From: Campylobacterales bacterium
GTDB taxonomy: Bacteria; Campylobacterota; Campylobacteria; Campylobacterales; Sulfurimonadaceae
Reading direction: 5' to 3'
Assembly (NCBI GenBank): GCA_024280035.1
Contig: JAJRQV010000094.1
Location: 1-44,393 of the forward strand
DNA: 44,393 bases
Shown: in pieces, positions 34,914 to 42,297 of the stretch
Layout of the letters: the number at the start of each line of letters is the position of its first letter
Numbering within the stretch: the stretch's first letter is position 1
Position numbers and translations under genes: made by a program
The notes under the pieces: model-generated
The model's input: the letters and a program-made list of their open reading frames with translations, nothing else
Databases searched by the model: none
Told to the model about the DNA's origin: nothing

Positions 34914-35197
34914 AAAAGAGAACGCATTATCGCTGTAATAAAGAGCTGGACAACTTGCAGACCAATAATAATTACTAAAGGCGCTAAGTCAATTCCATTA
35001 AACGAGGTAGGCATTATGCGTCTAACCAGTGCATAAGCAGGTTGTGTTAATCTGTAAAGTACTTGTACAATTGGATTATAAGGATCAGGTTTAACCCAAG
35101 AGAGTAAGGCGGCAATAATAATCACCCACATATATAACCAAATTAGCCCATTAAAAATTTGTAATAATCCAATAATTAGTTCATTTGTTGCATTCAT
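34910..35197 (-). CDS. YggT family membrane protein
   Basis: A 95-residue inner-membrane protein with two hydrophobic segments. The family motif between them is SWVKPDPYNPIVQVLYRLTQPAYALVRRIMP. YggT proteins are linked to membrane and cell-shape functions, but no biochemical role is settled. It overlaps gltX2 and slt by 4 nt each, so all three are translationally coupled. Confidence 0.93.
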   Translation of the reverse strand: MNATNELIIGLLQIFNGLIWLYMWVIIIAALLSWVKPDPYNPIVQVLYRLTQPAYALVRRIMPTSFNGIDLAPLVIIIGLQVVQLFITAIMRSLL

Positions 35198-36486
35198 TTA
35201 ACAATCTCCGTCATATAGTTTTTAATAAAAGGGTACATCTTCGCTAAGTCAGGACCCTCTTTTTCTCCCGATAAAAGAAGACGAAGTGTTTTAGAAAATT
35301 CGTCTCCTTTTAGCCCTGACTCTTTTATAAGGTAGGCGGTAAACTCATCAAAATTTTCAAAGAAAGGTGCCTGTATTAAAACATCTTTCAGCACTAAAGA
35401 TGTTTCTTTAAATAGCTCAGGAATAGTTTTTTCAGAAAAAATTCCAGCAATTTTAGCCTTTAACTCTTTTGTTGTTGAAAGCTCTTGTAAATAAAGTTTA
35501 GCCAATTTACCAATATCACCATCTGCAAAACCCACATAACGATAAAGTTCAATATCATCAAGATTTTTTAGGTGCTGTGCATTAATAAAACGAAGTTTCT
35601 TAATGTCAAGTTTAAGAGGAGTCTTTGAAATTTTAGAAAGGTCTAAAAACACCAATGCCTCTTTGAATGAGAAGATCTCTTTAGGCGTTTTGTTTCCAAT
35701 AAGAATTAAATAATTAATGATTGCCTCAGGAACAAAACCTTCTTCAAGTAAGTGTTTAATATTAGCAAAAGTATCGTTTTCACTTATCTTCTTACCTGAT
35801 TCATTTAAAAGAGTGGGAATGTGCGCGTATTGAATCTGTTTTGTGTAGTTGAGTGCTGCACGTACCGCAATCTGTTTGGGTGTGTCTAAAAGATAATCTT
35901 CTTCACGAATAATCATAGAGATGTCAGAAAGCATATCATCAACCGCACAGGCAAAGTTATAAGTAGGGTTTTTATCTGCACGCAAAATAACAAAACTGTC
36001 AATATCTGTAGGTGAAAAAGAGATCTTATTTTGGATGATGTCAGTAAACTCAACATCAACATTAGGCTTACGAAGACGAACAGTAAAGGAGGACTCATTA
36101 TCAATAGTTGCTTCGGGGCTTAAAGAGAGACAGGCATCATCATAATGGTAATCCTTTTTATCTTTAATTGCTTGTTCACGCTTAGCTTCTAGGGTTTCTG
36201 GTGTACAAAAACAGTTAAAAGCAATTTTTTCATGAAGAAGCTGAAGTGCCATAGAACGATGATACTTTAGATTAGAACTTTGATAAGTTATATCTTGGTA
36301 CCTAATACCAAAGAGATCCAAAAGACCAATGATTTCTTTATCTTTACCTTCAATATTAGATGCTTTGTCTTCAATACGAATAACAAGACCCTCATTTTTT
36401 TGAACAGAAAGAATATAATTAAAAAGAGCGATACGGAGGTTTCCGATGTGCATATCGCCTGTAGGGCTTGGCGCAAAACGTAACAT
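35194..36486 (-). CDS. gltX: Glutamyl-tRNA synthetase 2 (GltX2) with altered KMSKS loop
   Basis: A 430-residue class I synthetase. HIGH is HIGN in FAPSPTGDMHIGNLRIALF, and DDMLSDISMIIREEDYLLDTP and the C-terminal helical anticodon-binding region are present. It is the shorter second paralogue of this phylum; in Helicobacter pylori GltX2 charges tRNA-Gln with glutamate. The loop that should read K-x-S-K-R reads GKKISENDTF here, so the catalytic Lys and Arg are replaced by Glu and Asn. Other motifs look intact. Start ATG 36486 is standard. It heads an overlapping operon with yggT and slt. Activity cannot be judged from sequence; GltX1 is not in the window. Confidence 0.9.
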   Translation of the reverse strand: MLRFAPSPTGDMHIGNLRIALFNYILSVQKNEGLVIRIEDKASNIEGKDKEIIGLLDLFGIRYQDITYQSSNLKYHRSMALQLLHEKIAFNCFCTPETLEAKREQAIKDKKDYHYDDACLSLSPEATIDNESSFTVRLRKPNVDVEFTDIIQNKISFSPTDIDSFVILRADKNPTYNFACAVDDMLSDISMIIREEDYLLDTPKQIAVRAALNYTKQIQYAHIPTLLNESGKKISENDTFANIKHLLEEGFVPEAIINYLILIGNKTPKEIFSFKEALVFLDLSKISKTPLKLDIKKLRFINAQHLKNLDDIELYRYVGFADGDIGKLAKLYLQELSTTKELKAKIAGIFSEKTIPELFKETSLVLKDVLIQAPFFENFDEFTAYLIKESGLKGDEFSKTLRLLLSGEKEGPDLAKMYPFIKNYMTEIVK

Positions 36487-39527: not shown

Positions 39528-41315
39528 ATGAAACAACTTGATTATATTTATTCCGATACAAATAACTTAAAAAGGTACATGGAAGAGAACTTTAAGGAGA
39601 CAAAACTTCTTGTTCAACTCTTTTGTTCAGAAAAAATACAGGGTAATGTGATTGCTCAAGAAATACATGCTAACTGCACAAACACTTCAGTAAACATAAT
39701 AATTTCTCCCTCTTGCTCTCAAACAAGACTGCAGTTTACTGTTTTAGCCGATGATACGGTTTTAGTATCAGAACTTGCACCTATGGAGTTTGACTTTTTT
39801 AATTCTGGTCCTGTTGTAATTTTTAAAAGAGAGCCTAAAGACGACTGTTGGATAGTTACACACGTAACCAGCAGTGTCTCTCAATGGGGATACGAACCCT
39901 CTTTCTTTTTAGATAATGAGGATGCTGTTAAAGAGGTCTTTCATAAAGAAGATATGCAGCGCGTAAGAGATGACTTAACCTTGGCGGTTAAAGAGGGTAG
40001 AAATCAAATTAATCAGCAGTACAGAATCTATAAAACAGACGGTACTATTGCTTGGGTGTCAGACTATACCCAAGTCATTCGTAATCCCCAAAATGAACCT
40101 GTTGAACTTATCGGTTATCTTGTAGATATTACTCAAGATAAAAAACATGAGGCGCTTTATGCTGGTATTATTAATACAACGGCAGAAGGTTTTTGGTTAC
40201 TTGACGCAGATTTGAAAATCATTGATGTGAACTACTCCTTATGTGCCATGATCGGGTACAGAAAAGATGAAAGGATTGGGAAGTCCCCTTATGATTTTAT
40301 TGCTGAGCAAGATTATAACCTCTGTCAAGAACAAGCAGACTCTATAGACGAACTTTCAAGTCGTACTTATGAGATTACCTTGAGGCTTAAAGAGGCTGGT
40401 GAGATTCATACCCTTGCTAATGCAACCACCATGTATGACCAATTTGGTACGATGCGTACTTTTGCATTTATGACAGATATTAGTTCACAAAAAAAGATTG
40501 AAGAAGACCTTCGTAAACGACAAGAATCTATAGAAAATTTAAATAACTCTTTGGAGTCTAGAATTAGACAAGAGGTTGAAAAAAACCGTGAAAAAGACCA
40601 GATGATGTATCAGCAATCTAGACTGGCTTCAATGGGTGAAATGATAGGTAATATTGCTCATCAATGGCGTCAACCCTTAAATATCATGGCTCTTGTTATG
40701 CAAGATATTTATATTTCAGACCAGTTAGGTAACCTAACGAGTAAAAAAGTAGAAGAGTCATATGAAAAGTCAAATAATCTTTTACAATATATGTCCCAAA
40801 CTATTGATGATTTTAGAAACTTCTTTAAACAAAACGATGAATCTGCAAAGTTCAGCATAAAAGAAGCGGTTGAAACAGTATATAATCTAGTCAATACGAA
40901 TCTGAGTTATAATCAAATTGAGTGTATTATAGACGTACGACATGACTCAGAGGTTTATGGGGGTCTTAATGAGTTTAAACAGGTTCTTATTAATATTATA
41001 AACAATGCTCAAGAGGCTATTGAATGTAATCATATTAAAGATAATAAAAAGATTCATATTCTAATTACGCAAAAAAACAATAATGCCTTGGTTTCTATTG
41101 CTGATATGGGGGGTGGAATATCTAAGGGTGTAATGGAGAAAATCTTTGATCCGTACTTTACTACTAAAGAACAAACTCAAGGAACTGGTTTAGGTCTGTA
41201 TATGTCAAAACAGATTATTGAAAATTCAATGTGTGGTTCACTCAGTGCTAAAAATATAGATAATGGTGCAGAGTTTATTATTACACTTCCTTTAAAAAAG
41301 TGTGAAGAAGAGTAG
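39528..41315 (+). CDS. PAS-PAS sensor histidine kinase (soluble)
   Basis: A 595-residue cytosolic kinase with no membrane segment. Residues 1-85 are an unrecognised domain; LLVQLFCSEK-like strands resemble the start of a FIST sensor domain, but it is too short. Two PAS domains follow (about 94-202 and 208-320, the second with GFWLLDADLKIIDVN), then a coiled coil (322-360). The dimerisation-phosphotransfer domain has His378 in GNIAHQWRQPLN, and the ATPase domain has NIINNAQEA, DMGGG and GTGLGL. The HQWRQPLN H-box is the type common in Campylobacterota. It converges on a receiver-RHH gene (34 nt apart), a likely partner. The start ATG abuts a -10 box. Confidence 0.93.
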   Translation: MKQLDYIYSDTNNLKRYMEENFKETKLLVQLFCSEKIQGNVIAQEIHANCTNTSVNIIISPSCSQTRLQFTVLADDTVLVSELAPMEFDFFNSGPVVIFKREPKDDCWIVTHVTSSVSQWGYEPSFFLDNEDAVKEVFHKEDMQRVRDDLTLAVKEGRNQINQQYRIYKTDGTIAWVSDYTQVIRNPQNEPVELIGYLVDITQDKKHEALYAGIINTTAEGFWLLDADLKIIDVNYSLCAMIGYRKDERIGKSPYDFIAEQDYNLCQEQADSIDELSSRTYEITLRLKEAGEIHTLANATTMYDQFGTMRTFAFMTDISSQKKIEEDLRKRQESIENLNNSLESRIRQEVEKNREKDQMMYQQSRLASMGEMIGNIAHQWRQPLNIMALVMQDIYISDQLGNLTSKKVEESYEKSNNLLQYMSQTIDDFRNFFKQNDESAKFSIKEAVETVYNLVNTNLSYNQIECIIDVRHDSEVYGGLNEFKQVLINIINNAQEAIECNHIKDNKKIHILITQKNNNALVSIADMGGGISKGVMEKIFDPYFTTKEQTQGTGLGLYMSKQIIENSMCGSLSAKNIDNGAEFIITLPLKKCEEE

Positions 41316-41327
41316 GGTGGAAATAGA

Positions 41328-41342
41328 TGAGGCAACGCCTCA
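41328..41342. other. GC-rich hairpin between converging kinase and regulator genes
   Basis: TGAGGC-AAC-GCCTCA is a perfect 6-bp stem with a 3-nt loop midway between the two stop codons, notably GC-rich for this AT-rich region. There is no T run on either side, so it is not a standard terminator. It may stabilise mRNA ends or work with Rho. Confidence 0.45.
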
Positions 41343-41348
41343 CCGATG

Positions 41349-41897
41349 TTACTGATCGTAAAAAGAACGAAGTGCGCGAATAATTACCGCATTTTTAGAG
41401 ATACTCTCTGACTTAGCGTTTTCATCCACTAGTTCATATAAGTTTAATGGAAGTGAGATAGAAAAGGTTTTTGTCTCAATCTTTTTCTTTTTACTAATAA
41501 GTGCAGTTACATTACTTAAAAGTTCAATGATTTTTTTCGTATCAATTGGTTTTTGAATAAAACTGTTTACACCAATTTCAATTGATTCAGAAATTTTCTG
41601 AATATCATTTGATGCAGAAATTACAATAATAATCTGGTTTGGGTTCATTTCACGTAATTTACGAGAAAGCTCAATACCATCCATTTCAGGCATAACGATA
41701 TCAACAAAGATAATGTCTGGCTCAATACGCTCAAACATCTCTAATGCTTCTTTACCATTGAATGCAGACGTTACGTCTGAGAAAAAGTTTTTAAATGTAG
41801 AGCTTAAAAGTTCGTTTGCAACGCCTTCATCTTCTACAACCATAGCTGTAAGTTTTTTAGTCTGTTCTGTTAGTTGTACTAAGTCAACATTTGCCAT
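41349..41897 (-). CDS. Response regulator: receiver domain with ribbon-helix-helix C-terminus
   Basis: A 182-residue protein. The receiver domain (about 15-135) has acidic pocket Asp23, phospho-acceptor Asp66 in FVDIVMPEMDG, Ser94 in ISASND and Lys116 in QKPID. After a basic linker (KKKKIETK) the last 40 residues read TFSISLPLNLYELVDEN and then SKNAVIIRALRSFY, a pattern of the ribbon-helix-helix (CopG/MetJ) DNA-binding fold. Such an output is uncommon for a response regulator. It would bind DNA as a dimer; targets are unknown. AGGAGA precedes ATG 41897 and a TATAAT -10 box is at 41924-41929. It converges with the kinase at 39528-41315, its probable partner. Confidence 0.85.
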   Translation of the reverse strand: MANVDLVQLTEQTKKLTAMVVEDEGVANELLSSTFKNFFSDVTSAFNGKEALEMFERIEPDIIFVDIVMPEMDGIELSRKLREMNPNQIIIVISASNDIQKISESIEIGVNSFIQKPIDTKKIIELLSNVTALISKKKKIETKTFSISLPLNLYELVDENAKSESISKNAVIIRALRSFYDQ

Positions 41898-42102
41898 TAA
41901 ATCTCCTGTTACATTTTTATATAATTATACATTGTTGTTCTCTATTAAAATTAAACATACTAATCTAATCCATACCGTTAAATTAGGCTTAAGTAAGAAA
42001 TAACATTGTTATAAAGTGTTGAAATTATATTTTGTTAAACTTAAAGTAGAGTAAAATTAATATTTATTATAAATTAGTCACATAAATATGATGAATCTAA
42101 AA

Positions 42103-42297
42103 TCAATTCTCTTTCTTAAAGCTTAGCAACCACTCTTTATCATCAAGATGGTGTTTTTTACTCTCAAGTAAAGAGAGTTTGATGGCTTTTAAATCTTCTT
42201 CAGCTAAAAATTCTAGAACACTAGGGTTAATACTGGAACCCGAACCATACTCATTTAATAAGTCTGTAATCTCTTGCAGTAGCTCTTTTTCATTCAT
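42103..42297 (-). CDS. Small acidic protein downstream of gltA, unknown
   Basis: A 64-residue acidic helical protein (LLQEITDLLNEYG, VLEFLAEEDLKAIKLSLLESKKHHL). It starts 14 nt after the gltA stop, so it probably shares the gltA mRNA. No cysteine, membrane segment or known motif is seen. Its conserved look (regular helices, clear start) favours a true gene. Function unassigned; a role linked to citrate synthase is only suggested by position. Confidence 0.75.
   Translation of the reverse strand: MNEKELLQEITDLLNEYGSGSSINPSVLEFLAEEDLKAIKLSLLESKKHHLDDKEWLLSFKKEN

Follow-up and report, generated by a model that had tools for sequence, protein, structure and literature searches.

Within the window, the whole 44,393-nucleotide stretch of DNA analysed here, a minus-strand gene encodes a response regulator with a CopG-type tail that is real, conserved and uncommon, coupling ordinary response-regulator logic to a predicted DNA-binding output of a rare kind. 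Its reading as a phosphorylation-controlled ribbon-helix-helix (RHH) transcription factor is well supported. The explanation judged best overall, and one considered probable from the sequence and model data together, is that a kinase-phosphorylated receiver would set the assembly or DNA binding of an RHH dimer acting mainly as a repressor. The features of the regulator gene, which starts with ATG, are listed below with the basis of each assignment.

41349..41897, minus strand: response regulator with receiver and C-terminal RHH output, 182 aa (ORF list, Pfam, orthologue alignment)
41517..41843, minus strand: receiver domain, Pfam Response_reg, residues 19-127 (Pfam, orthologue alignment)
41829-41834, minus strand: acidic pair Glu22/Asp23 of the receiver (codon mapping)
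41700-41702, minus strand: putative phospho-acceptor Asp66 (codon mapping)
41616-41618, minus strand: Ser94 of the receiver (codon mapping)
41550-41552, minus strand: Lys116 of the receiver (codon mapping)
41472..41492, minus strand: basic linker, residues 136-142 (model; residues 137-142 with pLDDT below 50)
41352..41471, minus strand: predicted RHH (CopG-type) output, residues 143-182, with strand KTFSISL and helices 151-164 and 168-181 (Pfam, conservation, model, Foldseek)

The N-terminal part of the protein matches Response_reg (PF00072) over residues 19-127 with an E-value of 3.8e-25. A set of 38 non-redundant orthologous proteins was used for comparison, the other 37 being 60-97% identical to the regulator at 41349-41897; all 38 match Response_reg at E <= 0.01, and the receiver residues E22, D23, D66, S94 and K116 are invariant among them. 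An earlier note on this DNA had claimed a canonical receiver with Asp66 and Lys116, and both residues were found at those positions. The full-length model (pLDDT 80.2) comprises the receiver, a low-confidence linker (137-142) and helices at 151-164 and 168-181, with seven residues (136-142) separating helix 5 from residue 143. The 50 chains listed in a fold search with the whole model were CheY and other receivers (Z 19.1-20.6), and since receivers only were listed, the tail was predicted and searched alone.

In the regulator protein, residues 145-182 matched the Pfam RHH_1 profile (PF01402) with a score of 21.1 bits where the cut-off is 20.5 (E 3e-4), spanning profile positions 2-39 of 39. 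The same match reached 23.3 bits in a genome-wide search and was the sole one at E <= 0.001 in the genome (2.5 Mb, 107 contigs). The margin over the cut-off is a narrow 0.6 bits; the tail was therefore tested in three further ways, through orthologues, predicted fold and solved structures. Of the 38 orthologues, 6 miss E 0.01. Modelled alone with AlphaFold2, the tail (pLDDT 93.6) forms an extended arm followed by the same two helices as in the full model. No strand was assigned in either monomer model, full-length or tail alone, the strand region being the extended arm, a monomer result as would be expected of a sheet made only in the dimer. Foldseek searches of the PDB with the tail gave StnY (9kkd), CopG (1b01, 1ea4 and 2cpg), AmrZ (3qoq) and Arc (1par) as leading matches, with TM-scores by query length of 0.68-0.77. 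The best E-value was 0.044, with none at 0.001, weak values such as are expected for a query of just 46 residues. When a sequence profile of the tail was compared with PDB sequences nothing significant was returned, AvtR being the best match (E 0.3) together with an unrelated protein.

An RHH_1 score barely over the cut-off and weak Foldseek E-values would also fit a chance resemblance, the tail then prolonging receiver helix 5 by two helices that have no output function. This is very improbable given that the match covers the entire 39-position profile, that 32 of the 38 orthologues match RHH_1 at E <= 0.01, that nearly all of the 50 structural matches listed are RHH proteins (judged from titles and general knowledge), and that conservation of the tail exceeds that of the receiver (mean column identity 88.3% over residues 143-182 against 85.6% over residues 17-130 in the 38 orthologues). 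The assignment of the tail as a CopG-type RHH output is thus supported by profile, orthologue conservation, predicted fold and structural matches, in agreement with the RHH-pattern C-terminal tail that the earlier note had claimed. Of the checks proposed there, the RHH profile search gave a match above cut-off, and the search for strand, helix and helix found arm, helix and helix in the monomer model of the tail, which leaves the RHH reading unrefuted.

Conservation among the 38 orthologues is highest in the tail. Invariant positions in linker and tail are T142-I147, L149, P150, I166-A170 and I172-R174, and mean column identity is 99.7% in the RHH strand (residues 142-149) and 99.1% in the inter-helix turn; among receiver elements it is 100% for beta5, 87.4% for alpha4 and 64.6% for alpha2. 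Alternate strand residues face the DNA in the RHH family, and by analogy the DNA-facing positions here would be T144, S146 and S148; the first two are invariant and S148 is conserved to at least 90%. Several of the structural matches are antitoxins (8u12, 8ypj, 7zg6 and 6iya), proteins in which a second region binds a partner, and the tail might instead be an antitoxin-like dimerisation or protein-binding module rather than a DNA-binding output. However, it is the strand (142-149) and the N-terminus of helix B (165-170) that are most conserved, as DNA contact predicts, the protein stops directly after helix B, leaving no room for a toxin-binding tail, and no toxin gene was recognised among the neighbours whose sequences were inspected. 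A protein-binding role is accordingly regarded as improbable, and a DNA-binding output is the preferred reading of the tail.

The gene that converges on the regulator encodes a candidate partner.

39528..41315, plus strand: histidine kinase with PAS-PAS-HisKA-like-HATPase_c organization, probably soluble, 595 aa, candidate partner (ORF list, Pfam, neighbourhood comparison)

The stop codons of the two genes are 33 bases apart and both genes are intact at 39528-41897. Two PAS regions and HATPase_c were identified by Pfam, with HisKA below cut-off (18.6 against 26.9 bits) and an H-box reading IAHQWRQPLN. The most hydrophobic 19-residue stretch of the kinase averages 1.1 (Kyte-Doolittle), below membrane-span strength, indicating a probably soluble protein. 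The 33-base gap, the PAS and HATPase_c domains and the lack of a stretch of membrane-span strength all accord with the convergent soluble PAS histidine kinase previously claimed.

This arrangement suggests that regulator and kinase could form a dedicated pair, with one signal and one switch. In a search of 60 genomes with a kinase profile, adjacent kinases scored 373-447 bits and all others at most 325; the profile was built from 11 adjacent kinase cores, so that the scores of adjacent kinases are partly by construction, and the two adjacent kinases outside it, from G026 and G058, scored 373 and 378 bits. A tree was built from 32 kinase cores, 13 of them adjacent and 19 others taken from the strongest rows of the profile search; on it the adjacent kinases need 3 label changes compared with 10.4 in shuffles. 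The 13 were rejected as a single clade (p-AU 9.1e-05), whereas a clade that also includes a tandem copy from G039, a row added post hoc, was not (p-AU 0.486). The genes are also convergent and do not form an operon.

The loci judged for a kinase beside the regulator were 40 rows less G019, which has only 9 bases of 3' DNA, with G026 excluded because its regulator is split. Over these 39 loci the adjacent kinase is intact in 13, damaged in 2 and absent from 24, whilst the regulator is intact in all. Several of the 24 kinase-less loci have just 1.3-2.4 kb of 3' DNA, which is sufficient to reveal an adjoining gene. Intact adjacent kinases are found in G000, G001, G002, G004, G005, G009, G013, G017, G021, G039, G058, G185 and G236, that of G009 being short (267 aa, barely more than the kinase core). 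For G058, G185 and G236 a gap of approximately 2.6-2.9 kb was computed and read as an artefact of ORFs meeting or overlapping at their ends; kinase and regulator adjoin by coordinates in the first two and by inference in G236. The damaged kinases, both adjoining an intact regulator, are two short fragments in G003 (locus L141, approximately 6.4-6.9 kb) and a 398-aa piece in G011 (locus L159), and point to kinase decay. An adjacent kinase is also present beside the split regulator of G026. In G039 (locus L172) a second kinase lies in tandem behind the convergent kinase, downstream of the regulator, and groups on the tree with its family's adjacent kinases.

With the regulator always kept and an intact neighbouring kinase at 13 of 39 loci, a fixed partnership with this kinase does not hold throughout the family. 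The earlier proposal that the two genes form one switch therefore stands as far as the adjacent kinases score as a distinct set, and falls short in their distribution; a fixed pairing is supported only in part, and a dedicated pair is in our estimate slightly less probable than its opposite. Our reading is that the association of kinase and regulator may be old, the kinase having been lost by decay in many lineages and the regulator retained. As the phosphorylation residues are invariant where the kinase is gone, service by another kinase is favoured over none.

The regulator forms an orthologous family of narrow distribution. Among 60 relatives the full-length protein is present in 28 of 37 same-family genomes and in both genomes of family f4; in the same family it is split over contig ends in G026 and absent from eight. 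In G023 and G034, where it is missing, the flanking genes are kept and no remnant was found. Across 298 genomes of the phylum the full-length gene was detected in 26, all at 292 bits or more, the next-best match being a receiver only at 114 bits. These 26 carriers are 22 of the 27 same-family genomes listed (sulfur-oxidising relatives of Sulfurimonas/Sulfuricurvum) and four of the sister family f4. Of 80 loci kept, 64 are no more than 42% identical; the remaining 16 are the named relatives, most of which bear the labels Sulfurimonas, Sulfuricurvum, Sulfurimonadaceae or Helicobacteraceae. In plasmid and phage records all matches were below 60% identity, the plasmid matches listed being, where annotated, ordinary regulators or sensor proteins, and viral contigs gave no match to the regulator.

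Searches for the same architecture elsewhere gave similarly negative results. Nine of the 80 loci, chosen among those of longer coverage and inspected by eye, carried other regulator or kinase types with no RHH tail seen, and a profile of residues 100-182, run without a positive control, had no match in 15 genomes of other groups. A receiver was found in none of 27 long-frame RHH_1 proteins among the matches listed, a sample rather than a census, in which positive controls were detected; these came from a class sample of 56 genomes (8), the phylum matches listed (4) and 69 Desulfobacula-phylum genomes (15). From reading of their sequences, most of the long RHH frames listed from other genomes are presumably NikR-like. 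The literature searched, a scope outside which the standard response-regulator censuses lie, contained no response regulator of receiver-RHH type; Galperin's papers of 2006 and 2010 are reportedly surveys of this kind. The architecture may thus have been listed before, and no claim is made that it is unreported.

Upstream of the regulator the following features were recognized.

41898..42102, minus strand: intergenic leader of the regulator (sequence inspection, word counts in leaders)
41903-41907, minus strand: candidate ribosome-binding AGGAG (plausible placement in the leader)
41924-41929, minus strand: candidate TATAAT (plausible placement in the leader)
42103..42297, minus strand: conserved 64-aa ORF, upstream neighbour of the regulator in the same direction (Pfam, neighbourhood, consensus search)

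A consensus promoter scan around the leader found 6 matches against 6.1 in shuffles, showing no excess. The words TGTTA/TAACA occur 80 times in 38 leaders of 120 bases each, compared with 30.8 in dinucleotide shuffles (ratio 2.59), these leaders coming from related genomes so that the counts are not independent. Corresponding values are 64 against 43.6 (ratio 1.47) for 101 control leaders of neighbouring genes and 34 against 23.4 (ratio 1.45) for 42 control leaders below 30% GC. The enrichment is a weak hint of autoregulation, with the words as candidate sites. An operator of fixed spacing was rejected for now, as the spacing of TGTTA words is scattered and inverted repeats mostly equal those in shuffles: 5 of the 38 leaders have best repeats that exceed shuffles (p <= 0.05), and the p-value for the window's own leader is 0.85. 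Leaders L098 and L004 contain a long AT-rich inverted repeat and have the two highest repeat scores of the 38; that of L098, upstream of the regulator, is TTGTGTTATATA-N7-TATATAACACAA.

The 64-aa ORF is the commonest upstream neighbour of the regulator and has no Pfam match over cut-off. Its consensus matches in 35 of 60 relatives, some of them without the regulator. It was rejected as an obligate partner, being present without the regulator in G015, G023 and G034, and it was unmatched in the regulator-bearing G011, where upstream sequence is short, and G021.

Elsewhere in the window, at 35194-36486 on the minus strand, lies a GluRS-like paralogue in which the KMSKR signature reads KISEN. Among 13 copies examined, this one included, KMSKR is kept in seven and not in six, and the same genome has two stronger tRNA-synt_1c genes. 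The pattern suggests that the catalytic motif of a second GltX has decayed repeatedly.

For the regulator itself, the analysis establishes the two domains, an unbroken set of phosphorylation residues, strong conservation, an RHH-like fold of the tail and a narrow range; phosphorylation, its coupling to dimerisation, DNA binding, repression, autoregulation, targets and signal are a matter of inference. In the mechanism proposed, a histidine kinase would phosphorylate Asp66, plausibly the convergent soluble PAS kinase here and a kinase encoded elsewhere in most relatives. The phosphorylated receiver would shift its alpha4-beta5 face and so alter receiver pairing. Receivers commonly pair via alpha4-beta5-alpha5, alpha4-beta5 or alpha1-alpha5 faces (PMC12632262). 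Receiver pairing would in turn set how much RHH dimer, or pair of dimers, assembles and its mode of binding, with an output that would be mainly repression, perhaps together with regulation of its own promoter. The RHH dimer may be constitutive, phosphorylation changing cooperativity, or may be made by phosphorylation. RHH units are obligate intertwined dimers, both strands forming a sheet that enters the DNA groove, whilst the usual response-regulator outputs fold as monomers. Because RHH units are obligate dimers, pairing of the receivers would be only a short step, across the seven residues 136-142, from completing the DNA-reading sheet.

A bolder reading, advanced tentatively and on balance unlikely, is that the family constitutes a distinct response-regulator class in which phosphorylation sets RHH dimer assembly and folding of the sheet is itself the switch, with a single origin in the ancestor of the Sulfurimonas-type and sister families, and that it is a core regulator outliving its original kinase in most lineages. 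A receiver with a short linker and half an RHH unit would allow a direct test of phosphorylation controlling a DNA-binding fold via assembly. The protein is also a conserved candidate regulator for study in Sulfurimonas-type bacteria and would exemplify a regulator kept after its neighbouring kinase decays.

Compared with known systems, the regulator shares its receiver, with the Asp, Lys and Ser/Thr residues, with OmpR/PhoB, NarL and NtrC regulators. The outputs of those proteins are winged helix, HTH, or AAA+ plus HTH, whereas that of the regulator at 41349-41897 is predicted to be RHH. Phosphorylation-driven dimerisation would be expected, as in those regulators, via the faces named above (PMC12632262). 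CopG repressors (PF01402; 2cpg, 1b01, 1ea4) are alike in the strand-helix-helix order, the whole-profile match and TM-scores of 0.74-0.77 by query length; CopG, however, is a small stand-alone repressor, whilst here the RHH unit would be a C-terminal receiver output, probably under phosphate control. AmrZ, with 3qoq among the top structural matches, and NikR resemble the regulator in pairing an RHH unit with a second domain. NikR carries its RHH at the N-terminus. It combines an RHH domain with one that binds nickel (PMC9696931). In the protein at 41349-41897 a receiver serves as the regulatory domain, and the predicted RHH unit is C-terminal. The one combination of RHH and REC found in the literature searched is the Arc-type RHH-HisKA-REC proteins of Lokiarchaeum sp. 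GC14_75, as described in PMC5847659; these are hybrid kinases with the RHH first, whereas the regulator described here has no kinase part and places its predicted RHH unit last.
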